A DNA stretch of 26,819 nucleotides from the IMG/VR virus record IMGVR_UViG_3300011013_000069, positions 1-26,819 of that record. One strand, 5' to 3'. The notes beneath the pieces are model-generated. The model searched no databases, was not told the origin of the DNA, and saw only the letters and a program-made list of their open reading frames with translations. Below, piece after piece: positions 960 through 7,137 of this stretch. This DNA comes from a virus. The translations under genes were made by a program, and so were the position numbers. The stretch's first letter is position 1. The number at the start of each line of letters is the position of its first letter.

Positions 960-2669
960 ATGGATAGGCCGATCCCGCTGTTCGTGGAACTCACCGCGGG
1001 ACTGGCTTCGGTCTCACTGCGGCTCCAAGGCGGGCCCCACTGCCGGCCACCTGTGAGCCGGATGGGGAACAAGGCGGGCTACGCTGGCGCCATCCTCGAG
1101 GTGCTCGGGCTCAGGTCCAGCCAGGGGGCGGAGGCCTTCCTGTGGTGCGAGCCAGACGACGGGTGCAGGGCCCTGCTCCAAGCCTACCCCCAGCCCGATG
1201 TTCTGCGCGAAGCCGCGGAGATCATCCGGTCCTGGGCTGACGAGGACCCGCGGGCGCTGTGGGAACGGCTGCGGGCTGAGGGGCCGATTCGTGGGGCTGA
1301 TGGCGGGGAGGTGGCGCGGCACTGTTTCCTTCACATGGGGTCTTTTCAGTTCAAAGGGCCACAGGCGGGCATAGGGAGCCCGGAGGGCCACAACCGGGGC
1401 GGCTGGGGCGTGCCGCCGATAGCAACGACCATCCCGGGCCGCCTCGACTCCCTCGCCGCCTCCGAACTCGCCCGCTGGGCCCGGATCACCACCAGCAACC
1501 GCCTGATCAACCTGGACCCGCAGACCTGGCGCAACACGGGCCAAGGCGGGACCACGCACGGCGGGGAGGACTTCTCAACGGGTGCCGAGGACCTGGCGCT
1601 GGGGTTTGAGAGGGTGTCGGCTCGGGAACTTGCACGCTGGGAGGTCCGCTCGACGTGGTCCTATGAGCAGGGCAACGTAAAGACGGGATTCGTGGGGCCC
1701 GGCGAGCGCAGACAGGACACCTCAGCAACAGCAACAGCAACAGCAACAGCAAGGCACGCTCACACCTCCTGGCCCCCCGTCACCGTCTGCGCCGATGCCC
1801 GGGACATCGACCCGGGGTCATTCTACGTGGCGCCACAGTCTGCGGGACCGGACAGCGTAGATCGTGACCCGCTTCACCTTGTACCGATCTGCCATGACCT
1901 GCGCCGACTCATCCGACGATCTGATGTCGCGGACTGCATCCTCGGTGAGCTTCGCCCGGGGGTGGCGTTCTCCAATCTGGTGCGTACCGTGCCGAACCTT
2001 GTCTCCGATGTTCTCCTTCTGAGTGCTCCATGCAAGGTTTGTGGCGCGGTTGTTCGTGCGGGACCCGTCGAGATGCCGGACAACAGCCCCAGCCGGTCGA
2101 GGGCCATGGAATGCAACGCAAACCAAGGTGGCGATCTTGCGAGTGAATCGCCTGCCGCCAGTGCAGACGACAAGGTGACGATACCCGTCTTTGTCGAGGC
2201 CTCCCTTCAGCGGGCGGCGCGTGTAGTTGGAACGGATGAGGCCGCCTGCGGAGACCTCGTATTCGGGAGCTTCCGAGACCTTGCGCCAAGTCATCTACTG
2301 ACCTCCTGCACCACAATACCATATGGTGGCGCGGGTCTCCCGGCGGGCACTGTGGCATATGCGGATCCGCCGTATCGAAATACAACTGGGTACGGGAATG
2401 ACCTCCCGCGCGAGGAAGTGATTCGGCTTGCTGTTCGGTGGTCCCTCGCAGGAGCAACGGTCTGCATCTCCGAGGCTGAGGCCCTGCCTGAGCTCACTTC
2501 GATCGGGTGGCACCAGGTGGAGATCACCGACTGCCGGAAGGGTCAGAAGCGGACCTTCTCGAAGCAGAAGCGGGAATTCCTGACCCTGAACCGCGAGCCG
2601 GCCTGGGTCCCGAAGCAGTCCCTGCCCCTGGGTCTGTCGTTCGCTGAACCCCCGAAGGCGGCCAAGTGA
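960..2669 (+). CDS. N6-adenine DNA methyltransferase (D12/Dam-like) interrupted by an antisense HNH gene
   Basis: The protein carries hallmarks of an S-adenosylmethionine-dependent adenine methyltransferase: a motif-I-like F-V-E-L-T-A-G-L-A-S near residue 7, a P-P-V-S-R-M-G-N-K-A-G-Y stretch resembling motif X just after it, and the catalytic D-P-P-Y at about residues 469-472 followed by T-T-G-Y-G. It probably methylates phage or host DNA against restriction. ATG 960 was chosen because it follows a G-rich ribosome-binding stretch and directly precedes the first conserved motif. Roughly residues 285-458 (about 1813-2335) do not look like methyltransferase: on the opposite strand they encode an HNH endonuclease. 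The frame stays open across the insert, so the product could be a 569-residue protein with a large insertion or a non-functional enzyme. A hexanucleotide repeat lies just before the insert. Confidence 0.75.
   Translation: MDRPIPLFVELTAGLASVSLRLQGGPHCRPPVSRMGNKAGYAGAILEVLGLRSSQGAEAFLWCEPDDGCRALLQAYPQPDVLREAAEIIRSWADEDPRALWERLRAEGPIRGADGGEVARHCFLHMGSFQFKGPQAGIGSPEGHNRGGWGVPPIATTIPGRLDSLAASELARWARITTSNRLINLDPQTWRNTGQGGTTHGGEDFSTGAEDLALGFERVSARELARWEVRSTWSYEQGNVKTGFVGPGERRQDTSATATATATARHAHTSWPPVTVCADARDIDPGSFYVAPQSAGPDSVDRDPLHLVPICHDLRRLIRRSDVADCILGELRPGVAFSNLVRTVPNLVSDVLLLSAPCKVCGAVVRAGPVEMPDNSPSRSRAMECNANQGGDLASESPAASADDKVTIPVFVEASLQRAARVVGTDEAACGDLVFGSFRDLAPSHLLTSCTTIPYGGAGLPAGTVAYADPPYRNTTGYGNDLPREEVIRLAVRWSLAGATVCISEAEALPELTSIGWHQVEITDCRKGQKRTFSKQKREFLTLNREPAWVPKQSLPLGLSFAEPPKAAK
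1723..1752 (+). repeat. Five tandem CAGCAA hexamers
   Basis: The hexamer CAGCAA occurs five times without interruption inside the methyltransferase gene and encodes an alternating Ala-Thr run. Because the unit is six bases, copy-number change would lengthen or shorten the protein without shifting frame. It sits about 60 bases upstream of the HNH insertion. Confidence 0.9.
1818..2294 (-). CDS. NUMOD4-HNH homing endonuclease inside the adenine methyltransferase gene
   Basis: This 158-residue protein is read on the minus strand. Residues 2-50 match the NUMOD4 DNA-binding motif (W-R-K-V, E-Y-E-V-S-A-G-G-L-I-R-S). Residues 59-100 form the HNH nuclease core with V-V-R-H-L-D-G, N-N-R-A-T-N-L-A-W and E-N-I-G-D-K. 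Residues 114-158 (A-K-L-T-E-D-A-V-R-D-I-R to W-R-H-V-E) look like the C-terminal helix-turn-helix of these enzymes. A strong Shine-Dalgarno sequence (AGGAGGT on the minus strand, positions 2301-2307) precedes the ATG. Such enzymes nick or cut an uninvaded allele and are copied in by repair. Only about 20 bases separate either end from methyltransferase-like sequence, so there is no room for an intron. A sampled 60-base block inside (1861-1920) is 58 percent GC against 73 percent for 1081-1140. Confidence 0.88.
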   Translation of the reverse strand: MTWRKVSEAPEYEVSAGGLIRSNYTRRPLKGGLDKDGYRHLVVCTGGRRFTRKIATLVCVAFHGPRPAGAVVRHLDGSRTNNRATNLAWSTQKENIGDKVRHGTHQIGERHPRAKLTEDAVRDIRSSDESAQVMADRYKVKRVTIYAVRSRRLWRHVE

Positions 2670-2815: not shown

Positions 2816-3135
2816 CCCTGATCACCGCAGCCCTTGCAAGCCCAGCCCAGTGCATGACCGAGGCCGAGGCCCTGTTCACGTCCTGGCCCGTCCGCGCGGA
2901 CCTGGTGGCACCTGAGGCCCCAGAGAGCGCCTACGAGGCTCCAGGGGTCTCACAGGCCGTGGATTGGTTCGTGGATTGGATTCCTACGGGGCTTCAGATC
3001 GAGGTGGAGCTCAGCCGGAGCCTGGAAGAGCAACTGCTCTACGCGATCGACTGCACCGAGGGGTCGCACCCGGCCTGGTCCGCGATGGCTTCGGGGCTGC
3101 TGGCCCAGTGTGTGAGCGGGGGTCACTGCGGGTGA
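2806..3135 (+). CDS. Secreted (signal-peptide) hypothetical protein
   Basis: The 109-residue product starts with M-L-L-T-L-I-T-A-A-L-A-S-P-A-Q-C, a short hydrophobic signal peptide with a likely signal-peptidase-I site after A-L-A; the cysteine lacks a proper lipobox. The mature part is acidic, Trp-containing (V-D-W-F-V-D-W-I-P) and has three more cysteines that could form disulfides. A good AGGAGG site lies six bases before the ATG. A phage-encoded periplasmic or exported protein between two methyltransferases is most likely an accessory gene. No family is recognised. Confidence 0.65.
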   Translation: MLLTLITAALASPAQCMTEAEALFTSWPVRADLVAPEAPESAYEAPGVSQAVDWFVDWIPTGLQIEVELSRSLEEQLLYAIDCTEGSHPAWSAMASGLLAQCVSGGHCG

Positions 3136-5102
3136 GGGCTGTCTCCCTGTTCACGGGCGCGTGCGGTGCTGACCTCGGGATGACCGAGGCCGGGATCGAG
3201 ACCGTGTTGGGTATCGAGCATGACGCCTACGCGGTGGCGACCTGTCACGCGGCCGGGCTTGACTACGTGAAGCACGGAGACGTGCGGGACCTGTCACTGG
3301 TCGAGGACCTGGAAGACATCGATCTCGTGTACGGGGGCCCGCCCTGTCAGGCGTTCTCGACCGCGGGCAAGCGGGAAGCCCAGGACTCGGACCGGAACGG
3401 GTGGCCGTGGGCGCTCGATGTCGTGGACCTGGTCAAGCCCCAGTGGGTCCTGTTCGAGAACGTGCCCGGGTTGCTGCACCACTCCAAGGACTGCGCCGAT
3501 CCATGCGCTGGCTGCTACTGGACCGGGGACCTGCTGCCCGCCTTCCGGGAGCGGTTCCCTTGGGTCGGGCATCGGACGCTGAACGCATCCCAATATGGTA
3601 CGGTCGTTCCATGCCCGCTCCACGATACCGCCTGTCTGACCGATGCTGTGAAGAGTGCGGCAAGCGCCTCACGGTGCGCAACCGCACAGGCGTTTGCCGG
3701 ACTCCCTGCTATGGCCTCCGTGCCCGTCGAAGCGAGAAGAAGTGCAGCACATGCTCTGGGGCACTTGGCTCTCGCAATACGTGCGGCCTGTGCGTCCGGT
3801 GCAACATGCGACGAGCGGGTTCGTTCTCTCCTTGCACTGGCGCGGTCGGGCCCGACAACCCTTCCTGGAAGGGAGGCCGCCACGTTGACGACCGCGGCTA
3901 TGTCCGAGTTCGGGTGGCCGGCAAGTACCGCCGAGAGCATCGTGTTGTGGCTGAGCGCCTCCTTGGACGCCCTCTCACGAAGCGGGAAGTTGTGCACCAC
4001 ATCGACGGCAACAAGGAGAACAATCACCCTGACAATCTTGAGGTGTATCGCAGCAACGGCTATCACCTCGCCAGCCACCGGCACGGCAAGCCGTATGGAC
4101 GGGTGTGGCCTGTGTGTTGACTGGGCGGTCCCTCAGCACCGGCGCCGGGTGTTCCTGGTCGGCGGGCCTGGTCCCATCCTGTGGCCGCAGGCGACCCACG
4201 GCGACCCGGCCACGTTCAAGGCCCTGGACCTGTTCGGGAGACGGCTGAAGCCGTGGACCACCGTGCGCGACGCCCTGAACCTTGACGCCTGGGTCTACAC
4301 GGCCGGGACGAAGGGGAATGCTGAGATTCGAATCATCGGCGGGGGCCGGAACCCGCAGTCAGCCGAGGACGCGGACAAGCGCAGCTATCGGGACTTGACC
4401 GACGAGCCCTGCACGACCATAGCGGCAGCGGCAGCGGGCAACGCGGGGCCGTGGCTTGTCGGTTCCGGGCTCAAGGGCTCAACCTGGGAGGTGGAGAAGC
4501 CAGCGCCGACTCTGCGGGACGGCAACGGCACAGCCGGGCTCTACCTCGAGCGCCCGTCCCCCACCGTCACCGCCCAGGAGGTGAAGGGGACCCGAGCCAG
4601 CGCCGCCAGTGGCTGGACCTTCAGCGGTGGGCCGGACAGGGCCTCGGACGCCGTCTGGGCCGCCACCGGCCGGCGGCGCCTCACCGTGGCGGAGTGCGCC
4701 CGGCTTCAGGACTTCCCGGCCGGCCACCCCTTCCAAGGCACGAAGACGGCCCAGTATCGGCAGATCGGGAACGCCTGGCCTCGGACCTTCGGCCGGGTCC
4801 TGGGTCAGGCCTTGCTCGAGGCAGACCGCAAACTCAGGGTCTGCCCCTGCGGCCTCGACCTGATCTACGGCCACTGCTTCGCCTGTGACGACCCCCGCGA
4901 CCCGACAGCGACCGGGGGCTGCCAGGCACAGAGCGCCACGGAGATGCGCTCGGGACACCCCCACGGCTCCAACTGCCTCGGACTCGTGGGGGGTCCTTCT
5001 CCTCTTCCTGCCCCGCTCCATGCAGCTGTTGTGCAGGCCGTCAGTAGAACTGTAGATGAGGCCCTGGCGGCGGGCCGTGCGCGTGGTTGTGTGCTAAGGT
5101 GA
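3132..5102 (+). CDS. C5-cytosine DNA methyltransferase (Dcm-like) interrupted by an HNH gene
   Basis: GTG 3132 (GTGA overlap) starts a 656-codon frame with the C5-methyltransferase motif series: motif I F-T-G-A-C-G-A-D-L-G at residues 7-16, motif IV G-G-P-P-C-Q with catalytic Cys72, motif VI E-N-V at 109-111, then L-N-A-S-Q-Y-G ending at base 3599. The partner half of motif VIII, V-P-Q-H-R-R-R-V-F, resumes only at base 4128 (residue 333). Motifs IX/X (A-R-L-Q-D-F-P, Q-I-G-N-A at about 544) follow. Removing about 528 bases restores an ordinary Y-G-V-P-Q-H-R junction and a protein of about 480 residues. The insert carries an HNH gene in another frame. After motif X comes a cysteine-rich tail (C-P-C-G, then C-F-A-C, about residues 571-588). 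It likely modifies cytosine to evade restriction if still active. Confidence 0.85.
   Translation: MRAVSLFTGACGADLGMTEAGIETVLGIEHDAYAVATCHAAGLDYVKHGDVRDLSLVEDLEDIDLVYGGPPCQAFSTAGKREAQDSDRNGWPWALDVVDLVKPQWVLFENVPGLLHHSKDCADPCAGCYWTGDLLPAFRERFPWVGHRTLNASQYGTVVPCPLHDTACLTDAVKSAASASRCATAQAFAGLPAMASVPVEARRSAAHALGHLALAIRAACASGATCDERVRSLLALARSGPTTLPGREAATLTTAAMSEFGWPASTAESIVLWLSASLDALSRSGKLCTTSTATRRTITLTILRCIAATAITSPATGTASRMDGCGLCVDWAVPQHRRRVFLVGGPGPILWPQATHGDPATFKALDLFGRRLKPWTTVRDALNLDAWVYTAGTKGNAEIRIIGGGRNPQSAEDADKRSYRDLTDEPCTTIAAAAAGNAGPWLVGSGLKGSTWEVEKPAPTLRDGNGTAGLYLERPSPTVTAQEVKGTRASAASGWTFSGGPDRASDAVWAATGRRRLTVAECARLQDFPAGHPFQGTKTAQYRQIGNAWPRTFGRVLGQALLEADRKLRVCPCGLDLIYGHCFACDDPRDPTATGGCQAQSATEMRSGHPHGSNCLGLVGGPSPLPAPLHAAVVQAVSRTVDEALAAGRARGCVLR
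3611..4120 (+). CDS. HNH homing endonuclease with zinc-finger N-terminus, inside the C5 methyltransferase gene
   Basis: This 169-residue protein is read in +2 frame relative to the window, different from the surrounding methyltransferase frame. The N-terminal 70 residues have several Cys pairs (C-C-E-E-C, C-S-T-C, C-G-L-C-V-R-C) that look like zinc ribbons. A NUMOD3-like G-P-D-N-P-S-W-K-G-G follows at 80-89. The HNH core spans about 108-152 with R-E-H-R, V-V-H-H-I-D-G-N and N-N-H-P-D-N-L-E-V. ATG 3611 lies 12 bases after the last methyltransferase codon, and the stop is seven bases before the methyltransferase resumes, so the mobile unit is almost pure coding sequence. No clear Shine-Dalgarno precedes the ATG. 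An upstream start is unlikely because that region is conserved methyltransferase sequence in the other frame. Confidence 0.87.
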   Translation: MPAPRYRLSDRCCEECGKRLTVRNRTGVCRTPCYGLRARRSEKKCSTCSGALGSRNTCGLCVRCNMRRAGSFSPCTGAVGPDNPSWKGGRHVDDRGYVRVRVAGKYRREHRVVAERLLGRPLTKREVVHHIDGNKENNHPDNLEVYRSNGYHLASHRHGKPYGRVWPVC

Positions 5103-5202: not shown

Positions 5203-5283
5203 ATGAGCGATCAGACGGAGAGCCTCGGGCGTCGGGCGGCAGCGTGCGAGGAAGCCAAGGCGAATCTCCGGGCCAGCCGGTGA
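5203..5283 (+). CDS. 26-residue leader ORF before the replication initiator
   Basis: ATG 5203 has a good ribosome-binding site (GGGAG, positions 5194-5198) and opens a 26-codon frame beginning M-S-D-Q-T-E-S-L and ending L-R-A-S-R. Its TGA overlaps GTG 5280 as GTGA, the same coupling used at many junctions in this window. It may be a genuine small gene or a translational leader that delivers ribosomes to the initiator gene. The product is helix-prone and charged, with no recognised family. Confidence 0.5.
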   Translation: MSDQTESLGRRAAACEEAKANLRASR

Positions 5284-6191
5284 CCACCGCCCCCTTCTTC
5301 ACAGTTGACTCGGCATGGTGGCCGACCATCGCGGACACCCTGACCCTTCCGTGGGACCGCGAAGCCGTGCTGGCGGACATGCGGTACTGGGACAATGAGA
5401 TCAGGCGGAAGAAGCGCACCAAGGTCCCGAGCCGTCGGTGGCTTGCAGCCCGCTGGGGCTGGGGCGACAAGCGAGCCCGGACCATGCTGGCCTGCCCCGA
5501 CTGGCACGATCCGCGCCACACCCAGGGGTCCCAACGGGGTCCCAAGAAGGTCCCACTGGGGTCCCAAGAAGGTCCCAATTTGTGGTGGCAAGCCACTGAT
5601 ATCACATGGGTTGAGGTCCCACTGGGGTCCCACTGGGGTCCCACTGGGGTCCCAACAGGGTCCACACGCGCGGGTCTTAACAAGGAACCAGGAACAAGGA
5701 ACCAGGAACCAGAGCCCCCCCCTACCCCCCAGAGGGGGAAGCGGAAGAGACCCAAGCCGGAACCGTGGGCAGCACCAGACGAGGTCCAGCAGCTCGCCGT
5801 AGACATGACCGAGGCCTGGGGTGGGCGTCTGTCGTGGTTGGTAGCCAGCCCGCTCAAGGGCATGACCCGGCTCCAGTGCCTGGCCTGGTGGATGGGCTTG
5901 TACCGGACCAAGGGCCACGACCCACCCGCTGAGGTCTACGCCGCCGAGGTCATCTCCGGAGCATGGCAGGCCTACCTCCGAGAGGACTGGGCCAGGCAGC
6001 CAAACAGGGGGATCAAGACCTTCCTGCGGCCGTCATCGCTACCCGGCTGGACCGAGACCGGAGACCCGAACCTGCCCGAGGTCCTGGACCCGGAGCGCGA
6101 ACGGCTCAGAGCCATCAATGCCTCGGTAGGACTCGACGAATGGGGGCAGCCCCTGCCTGACAACGTGACCAAACTGGAGATGCACCGATGA
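5280..6191 (+). CDS. Phage replication initiator-like protein with internal origin
   Basis: GTG 5280 (GTGA overlap) gives a 303-residue protein. An upstream in-frame ATG at 5175 exists, but the coupled start behind the 26-codon ORF fits the local pattern better. Residues about 51-72 (S-R-R-W-L-A-A-R-W-G-W-G-D-K-R-A-R) resemble the winged-helix DNA-binding segment of phage replication initiators. Residues about 80-135 are low complexity because the DNA there is an iteron array. Residues about 165-303 form a Trp-rich C-terminal domain, possibly for partner binding. A DNA-binding N-terminus, iterons inside the gene and a charged linker recall lambda O-type initiators. The function is inferred from architecture, not from a specific family hit. 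Confidence 0.6.
   Translation: MTTAPFFTVDSAWWPTIADTLTLPWDREAVLADMRYWDNEIRRKKRTKVPSRRWLAARWGWGDKRARTMLACPDWHDPRHTQGSQRGPKKVPLGSQEGPNLWWQATDITWVEVPLGSHWGPTGVPTGSTRAGLNKEPGTRNQEPEPPPTPQRGKRKRPKPEPWAAPDEVQQLAVDMTEAWGGRLSWLVASPLKGMTRLQCLAWWMGLYRTKGHDPPAEVYAAEVISGAWQAYLREDWARQPNRGIKTFLRPSSLPGWTETGDPNLPEVLDPERERLRAINASVGLDEWGQPLPDNVTKLEMHR
5527..5665 (+). repeat. Iteron array (GGTCCCA every 11 bp), probable replication origin
   Basis: GGTCCCA occurs at 5527, 5538, 5549, 5560, 5571, then 5615, 5626, 5637 and 5648, with a degenerate tenth copy at 5659. The step is exactly 11 bases within each block of five, and the gap between blocks is 44 bases, which is four steps, so all copies share one phase close to one DNA helical turn. 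The four variable bases after each core are most often CTGG. Because 11 is not a multiple of three, the array is not explained by a simple peptide repeat. Clustered, phased direct repeats inside an initiator gene are the hallmark of a phage origin bound by its own initiator. Confidence 0.8.
5680..5712 (+). repeat. Tandem 14-bp direct repeat beside the iterons, possible unwinding element
   Basis: ACAAGGAACCAGGA occurs twice in tandem (5680-5693 and 5694-5707), followed by a partial ACCAG. The tract is purine-rich on this strand and less GC-rich than its surroundings, and a run of eight C (5715-5722) follows. In lambda-type origins an easily melted purine-rich tract sits next to the iterons, so this is a candidate DNA-unwinding element. 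Confidence 0.55.
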
Positions 6192-6502
6192 CCACCCACG
6201 CCCCGTTCACTCGTGCCGAGCGCAAGGCCCGTCAGGCCGCAAAGACCTTCGAGGTCATCCCCGCCCGCAGGAGCCGCGCCATCGACAGGCACCCTCTCCG
6301 ACGAGGCCCCCTCCAGGCGTTCATCCCGCTGCCGCACGAAGGCCCGAAGGCGCACCGATACGGACTTGAGCCCCAGGTCACCCGCCCATGGGGGTCTGGC
6401 AAAGACATGGAGCACACGGTCTGCACTCCGCGGATCATGCGGGCCGTTCTGGCCGAGGCGACCCACCAGCACCATGGTGCGCTGGAGCGGTTCAGGCTGT
6501 GA
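6188..6502 (+). CDS. Basic hypothetical phage protein
   Basis: ATG 6188 overlaps the initiator stop as ATGA. The 104-residue product starts with a basic, helix-prone segment (T-R-A-E-R-K-A-R-Q-A-A-K) and is rich in Arg, His and Pro. It sits between the initiator and a possible helicase-loader-like gene, so a replication accessory role is plausible. No domain is recognised. Confidence 0.6.
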   Translation: MTTHAPFTRAERKARQAAKTFEVIPARRSRAIDRHPLRRGPLQAFIPLPHEGPKAHRYGLEPQVTRPWGSGKDMEHTVCTPRIMRAVLAEATHQHHGALERFRL

Positions 6503-7137
6503 GCCTCAACCGCGACGACGTTCGCTTCCTGTTCGCCAAGATGCGGGCCGCCAAGGTCCAAGGCGTACCCAACACCATGGAACAGCCCGCGATGGTCGAT
6601 GACTGGGTCAACACCATGCCGGACTACTGGACCCGGGACATGCTGGTAGAGGCGTTCTACAGCTACCGACGGGTAGGCCGCGTCAATGGCCGGTTCTGGC
6701 CCGCACCTGGTGACTTCATACACGCCAGGGCAGCCGACAACGTCAATCCGCACCTGAAGCAGGTAGACAAGGACCGCGAAGGCTGCGACATCTGCAAGGC
6801 CCATGGTGACCCGAAGTCCGGCTGGGTGACCGTCTACAGGCCGAACCCTCCCAGAGAGACCCGAGCCAGGGACCCCCACGGGATGGACATGGGGCACTGG
6901 GCGCCCGCTTCCATCGTCTCGGGTGTCATCAGGTGCCCCTGTTGGAAGGCCCCCGAGAACGAGAAGCACATCAAGATCGGCTTCGACCTCCGAGGATGGC
7001 TCGAGGGCTGGCGCCACAACATGGAATGGCACGAATGGGCCATAGAGCACAGCAACAAGGCCACAAAGCAGCTGGACGAGCTCAGGTTCCAGAGGCAACA
7101 GGTGCTCGCGGCTCAGGTGCTGGGGAGGGTGGGGTGA
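6499..7137 (+). CDS. Possible replication accessory / helicase-loader-like protein
   Basis: GTG 6499 (GTGA overlap) gives a 212-residue protein. It has an N-terminal helical part (F-L-F-A-K-M-R-A-A-K, then D-Y-W-T-R-D-M-L-V-E-A-F-Y), an A-P-G-D-F-I segment, and two cysteine pairs: C-D-I-C-K-A-H-G near residue 95 and R-C-P-C-W near residue 147. Paired C-x-x-C...C-x-C after a helical N-domain is seen in several phage replisome-organiser and helicase-loader proteins. The location immediately after the initiator supports a replication role. The C-terminus is helical and charged. The specific function is inferred. Confidence 0.45.
   Translation: MSLNRDDVRFLFAKMRAAKVQGVPNTMEQPAMVDDWVNTMPDYWTRDMLVEAFYSYRRVGRVNGRFWPAPGDFIHARAADNVNPHLKQVDKDREGCDICKAHGDPKSGWVTVYRPNPPRETRARDPHGMDMGHWAPASIVSGVIRCPCWKAPENEKHIKIGFDLRGWLEGWRHNMEWHEWAIEHSNKATKQLDELRFQRQQVLAAQVLGRVG

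Follow-up and report, generated by a model that had tools for sequence, protein, structure and literature searches.

The stretch of DNA analysed here, referred to as the window, is a virus record of 26,819 bases whose terminase, Mu-type portal and tape-measure genes identify it as a fragment of a tailed phage. On the plus strand, a leader ORF of 26 codons recognized by reading the sequence (5203-5283) ends in a TGA stop codon that overlaps the GTG start of the following gene, and the two are possibly coupled in translation. The same GTGA stop/start overlap is found in L172, the nearest related phage. The following gene (5280-6191, plus strand), whose reading frame most likely starts at GTG 5280, encodes a replisome-organizer-like initiator of 303 residues, assigned through its homologs and lying outside the known families: no family match was obtained for this product in PHROGs, Pfam or NCBIfam. 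One gene after the initiator lies a helicase-loader-like gene (6499-7137, plus strand), which is syntenic in the related phages L177, L174 and L257. A four-sequence profile of this gene gave the SPP1 protein G39P (1NO1) as its sole PDB match, a weak one (E 0.065). The best structural alignment of its product was with the lambda P loader (Z 6.4 over 75 residues), a score within the range of common helical arrangements. These weak matches together with the genomic setting make it likely that the gene encodes a helicase loader.

Two further loci were noticed upstream. The C5-cytosine methylase gene (3126-5102) contains an in-frame insertion of approximately 173 codons at about 3603-4122 when compared with the intact 343-residue homolog of L172. 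An HNH endonuclease ORF (HNH_3, E 2e-9) is read in another frame within this segment, which is likely a homing insertion; a search of Rfam gave no intron match there. A second HNH_3 endonuclease (1818-2294, minus strand, E 8e-12), with a weak NUMOD4 match, lies antisense inside the ORF 639-2669.

The AlphaFold2 model of the initiator is confident only for approximately residues 10-70 (pLDDT 77-89), which form, according to the model and to the alignment of homologs, a predicted N-terminal helix-turn-helix DNA-binding domain (5307-5489, plus strand). Helices were modelled at residues 14-20, 27-42, 52-59 and 63-70. The last of these, second helix of the helix-turn-helix, is the predicted recognition helix (DKRARTML; 5466-5489, plus strand). 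The linker encoded by the repeat array described below has a pLDDT under 50 and is predicted to be disordered. Only weak matches to helix-turn-helix proteins were found in the PDB for the N-terminal domain, and Foldseek returned no significant match with either model.

The heptamer GGTCCCA occurs on the plus strand in nine exact copies starting at 5527, 5538, 5549, 5560, 5571, 5615, 5626, 5637 and 5648. A preliminary description of this DNA had counted ten iterons in two blocks of five. The 11-base spacing within blocks holds, but the tenth unit, at 5659, is degenerate (GGTCCAC) and merges with the box CACACGCGCG, so that the layout is 5+4(+1) units. Block 1, delimited by repeat search, comprises five GGTCCCA (5527-5577), and block 2 (5615-5665, plus strand like block 1) comprises four exact copies (5615-5654) followed by the degenerate one (5659-5665). 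CTGG spacer bases recur within block 2. The gap between blocks, given earlier as 44 bases in phase, is indeed four steps of 11 when measured start to start from 5571 to 5615, but the bare gap (5578-5614) is 37 bases long; its predicted duplex stability is the second lowest of the gene, near 5602. The claim that all copies face the same side of the helix is valid locally but not for the whole array: at 11 bp against 10.5 bp per turn, each unit is rotated by about 17 degrees relative to its neighbour, which by calculation adds up to about 206 degrees between the two ends of the array on straight B-DNA. The whole array could lie on a single face only if the bound DNA were slightly underwound. Fused to the last unit is the terminal GC box CACACGCGCG (5663-5672, plus strand), which is conserved as DNA across codon phases. 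Behind it, TTA and A-rich tandem repeats of 7/14 bases (AACAAGGAACCAGG twice; 5677-5712, plus strand) constitute a candidate unwinding element with the lowest predicted duplex stability of the gene; the minimum, at 5688, is the seventh lowest position in the 26.8 kb window.

The array is neither due to chance nor forced by the encoded peptide. Phased 7-mers reach a maximum of 9 in the window gene; none of 2000 permutations of its synonymous codons exceeded 5, and none of 100 windows simulated with a Markov model exceeded 3. When periods 8 to 30 were surveyed over the whole window, none besides 11 exceeded 3 phased 7-mers, except its multiple 22. The units occupy all three codon phases of the gene, and the encoded linker is therefore the product of a three-phase reading of the repeat.

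Direct protein searches with the window initiator found no relatives among viral contigs, phages and plasmids, and tblastn of the protein against phages gave one chance-level match (E 3), outside the Rep2009 family of phage Tuc2009. After these direct searches had failed, the large terminase was used as a route to relatives. In this way L174 and L177 were found to carry a gene homologous to the window initiator (26-32% identity overall; 39% between the N-domains of the window and L177), and L257, L262 and L267 were reached from these two. By its large terminase (81% identity), L172 is the nearest phage; in it, a DnaB helicase gene (E 4e-20) immediately follows the gene of a similarly built initiator. 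These six relatives (L257, L177, L174, L262, L267 and L172) were thus obtained through protein homology and not through the repeat. Two others, L290 and L273 (the phage of L028), were picked up by a search with the unit and are not independent evidence for it. The L290 and L172 proteins resemble the window protein weakly outside the helix-turn-helix. The nine genes amount to about five divergent lineages when the five genes of the L257 clade are counted once. None of the nine proteins showed, in Pfam, a Rep-type domain of the iteron-plasmid Rep proteins (RepE, TrfA type). The family is thinly sampled, and a cultured member was not found. In L172, the segment 3004-5297 holds a different initiator, with few units, and its own DnaB gene where the loader would be, which suggests cassette-like exchange of the replication module.

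Two DNA patterns were rejected as search tools. Three GGTCCC at 11-base steps, tried as a system-defining signature in viral and genome collections, gave mostly unrelated GC-rich loci, and the terminal box CCACACGCGCGNNNTTANAC returned the known clade plus chance matches. Other 11-base arrays were noted in passing. Tandem 11-base GGGACCAAGTC repeats occur in L014 (about 2180-2270, minus strand), L056 and L131, inside regulator-like genes that are not phage initiators and that we take to be of the ATP-binding/AlbA type. In L043 (about 6350-6440), GGGACC repeats at 11 bases lie in the linker of a gene whose N-terminus is presumably DUF1376-like; perhaps this gene is another initiator family with the same plan. 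In four AT-rich contigs (L283, L287, L289 and L297), GGACCAA occurs in two clusters of three copies at 11-base steps, with 106 bases between the clusters and no long reading frame running across them; these are possibly non-coding arrays of the same design as that of the window.

Arrays sit at the same place in the window gene and in the eight homologous or similarly built phage genes, which supports the earlier assignment of the array to a phage initiator-type gene. Of all lags from 4 to 39, 11 gives the strongest periodicity in each of the nine. The unit itself varies: GGTCCCA in the window, GGTCCCG in L273, GGACCAC in L172, CGACTCAC in L177, and GGACCAA or GAACCAA in L257, L262, L267, L174 and L290. 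Block 1 is degenerate in L290 and L172, and L172 retains only about four clear units, its lag-11 score being matched in 8 of 300 synonymous permutations. From block to block the step measures 43 bases in the five genes of the L257 clade and 44 in the remaining four (window, L273, L290 and L172). A terminal GC box follows, as CACACGCGCG in the window, L177, L262 and L267, as CACAGGCGCG in L257 and L174, and as GATCGCGCGCG and GATCGCGCACG in L273 and L290. Relative to the last grid position, GCGC begins 8-10 bases in for eight genes and 13 for L172, and the box is read in two different codon phases across the genes. In most genes the box is followed by TTA and by short repeats, 6-7 bases long and rich in A and C. 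In nine of nine cases the duplex behind the box has a predicted stability within the lowest 0.8% of the gene; in three genes the inter-block spacer is the weakest point of the duplex. The findings on the GC box and on stability come from the very nine genes on which they were first noticed, without a held-out set. The two-block step, the GC box and the low-stability stretch give the array the anatomy of an origin across the set, as had been proposed. Selection on the DNA and not on the peptide, also proposed from the window only, is supported by the comparison, since homologs retain the repeat yet lose the encoded peptide. The opposite case, a homolog keeping the peptide without the repeat, which had been named as evidence against this claim, was not found among the eight related genes.

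L177 and L257 form a close pair. Their N-domains are 84% identical and their C-domains 86%, but the linkers only 37%, because the units differ: those of L177 have changed together to the CGACTCAC type. The predicted recognition helix reads SQSKVSRLL in L257 and SQSKVRRLL in L177, one of several differences between the N-domains. As a correlation between sequences, no other observation points as strongly as this pair to the DNA units being kept rather than the peptide, and to the N-domain as their possible reader. A single switch is not claimed, the tree of the five L257-clade proteins leaving the position of L177 open, and the independent lineages are too few for statistics on a recognition code. 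The pair nevertheless makes a joint change of an initiator and its ten sites directly testable, and across the nine genes recognition helices and their units come as naturally matched pairs.

Taken together, these comparisons make it highly probable that the array is a phage replication origin inside the gene of its own initiator, a replisome organizer. The N-terminal helix-turn-helix would bind each unit, one initiator monomer per helical turn, and a continuous nucleoprotein filament would form over both blocks. Because units at 11 bases drift around relaxed B-DNA, whose pitch is slightly shorter, a regular filament over them would underwind the duplex. The resulting strain would be relieved on the far side of the GC box, within the A-rich repeats at 5677-5712; opening within the inter-block spacer is the main alternative to opening behind the terminal box. 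The putative loader encoded downstream would then bring a DnaB-type helicase, probably that of the host. Location of the site inside the initiator gene would keep protein and site linked during the exchange of replication modules between phages. A turn of the cumulative GC skew at the array, suggested earlier as a check, was not found in the window, which is a fragment and not a full genome; GC skew and GGWCC counts were uninformative.

Other functions for the array have to be considered. Such a protein might bind its own gene as an operator, for repression or activation of transcription or for copy counting, with replication starting elsewhere. A predicted DNA-binding domain is encoded beside the units, GGGACC-type repeats at 11 bases are also found with other DNA-binding regulators (L014, L056, L131) and the initiator may well autoregulate in addition to its main role. 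We nevertheless consider a purely regulatory array unlikely: it lies 250-390 bases into the coding region and not at a promoter, and a two-block layout with as many as ten or eleven units, ending in a GC box and low-stability repeats in nine of nine genes, speaks against an operator. Moreover, the nearest precedent, Tuc2009 rep, is annotated with an origin in GenBank and likewise described in the literature (PMC8965321).

It is very unlikely that the array is a functionless by-product of slippage in a segment encoding a disordered linker. Slippage may account for the likeness of the units within one array, the linker is predicted to be disordered and the CTGG spacer bases recurring in block 2 resemble recent duplications. 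Slippage leaves unexplained, however, the period of 11 across nine genes with different units as well as the 43/44 block step and the fixed distance to the GC box and the weak stretch, and a frame-changing unit would be costly in the absence of selection. A packaging (pac) site, or another recognition site for a phage protein encoded elsewhere, is less probable still. The terminase genes do lie about 2-4 kb downstream, but the array is found within an initiator-type gene in all relatives regardless of the distance to the terminase genes, and in L177 the unit and the recognition helix of the initiator have changed together. Few phages have had an intragenic origin mapped, and the initiator family described here is absent from the protein-family libraries searched. 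The comparison suggests that such origins could be found in metagenomic phages from sequence only, by an 11-base periodicity behind an N-terminal helix-turn-helix.

In Tuc2009 and TP901-1, direct repeats located within the replisome-organizer gene are bound by its product and serve as ori (PMC8965321). In Tuc2009, the gene of Rep2009 (ORF16) holds the origin, as proposed for the window (GenBank note; PMC8965321), and four copies of AACCA spaced at exactly 11 bases precede CACAGG and 5-base tandem repeats in it. It differs by its four to five units in a single block, against ten in two, by the lack of a CGCG box and by its N-terminal domain, for which no sequence similarity to that of the window was found. 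Lag 11 is also strongest in the Brochothrix and Ruminococcus relatives of Tuc2009, with related but different units; a period of 11 throughout the family is not claimed, lag 11 being strongest in only two of ten relatives. In several Tuc2009 relatives (L301, L303-L312), CACAGG and then TTAGG/ATAGG 5-base tandem repeats stand behind the iterons, resembling the box-plus-repeat layout of the window. The short, phased repeat, initially regarded as unusual, is thus no novelty: besides Tuc2009, plasmid iterons are helically phased (PMC5043065), and in ori2 of V. cholerae 12-mers recur with spacings of 10 or 11 base pairs (PMC6090056).

The likeness to bacterial oriC, where DnaA boxes are followed by DnaA-trios, is one of layout only: double-stranded boxes and then short repeats potentially gripped as single strands (PMC10797057). 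The window differs in having no DnaA box at the array and no sign of an AAA+ initiator, and its repeats are not trinucleotides. Three one-mismatch sites for the DnaA box TTWTNCACA were found in the 26.8 kb, fewer than expected by chance and none in the array. With a period of 6 or 7 (5 in the Tuc2009 family), the repeats do not fit a strict DnaA-trio pattern, and this reading was abandoned. It is conceivable, though we would not call it probable, that several unrelated phage initiator families share one plan, in which sites one helical turn apart are followed by a differing terminal box (CACAGG or CGCG) and by 5-7-base repeats gripped single-stranded by the same filament, as a phage counterpart of the DnaA box-trio system. 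Specificity would then be re-set by point changes in the recognition helix, with the units following, and the pairs could be read as a code.

An origin inside the gene of the protein that binds it would fit an arrangement already known from phages lambda, SPP1, TP901-1 and Tuc2009. The iterons of lambda lie in O, and ori-lambda shares with the window the mid-gene position and an easily melted (in lambda AT-rich) region behind the iterons; its loader gene P, next to the initiator, would correspond to the putative loader gene of the window (PMC7466680). Lambda differs by its four inverted-repeat iterons of 18-19 bases, bound by O dimers at 20-24-base steps, in contrast with short direct repeats at one per turn. 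The SPP1 oriL lies in gene 38 and, by its published description, likewise combines an origin inside the gene of its binder gp38 with direct repeats, an unwinding element and a loader, gp39 (PMC6316719). The genes of TP901-1 Rep and of gp49 from the Listeria phage A118 also carry direct repeats behind the DNA-binding domain, as in the window, but at different steps, 15 bases in TP901-1 and 12 in A118, compared with 11 in the window.
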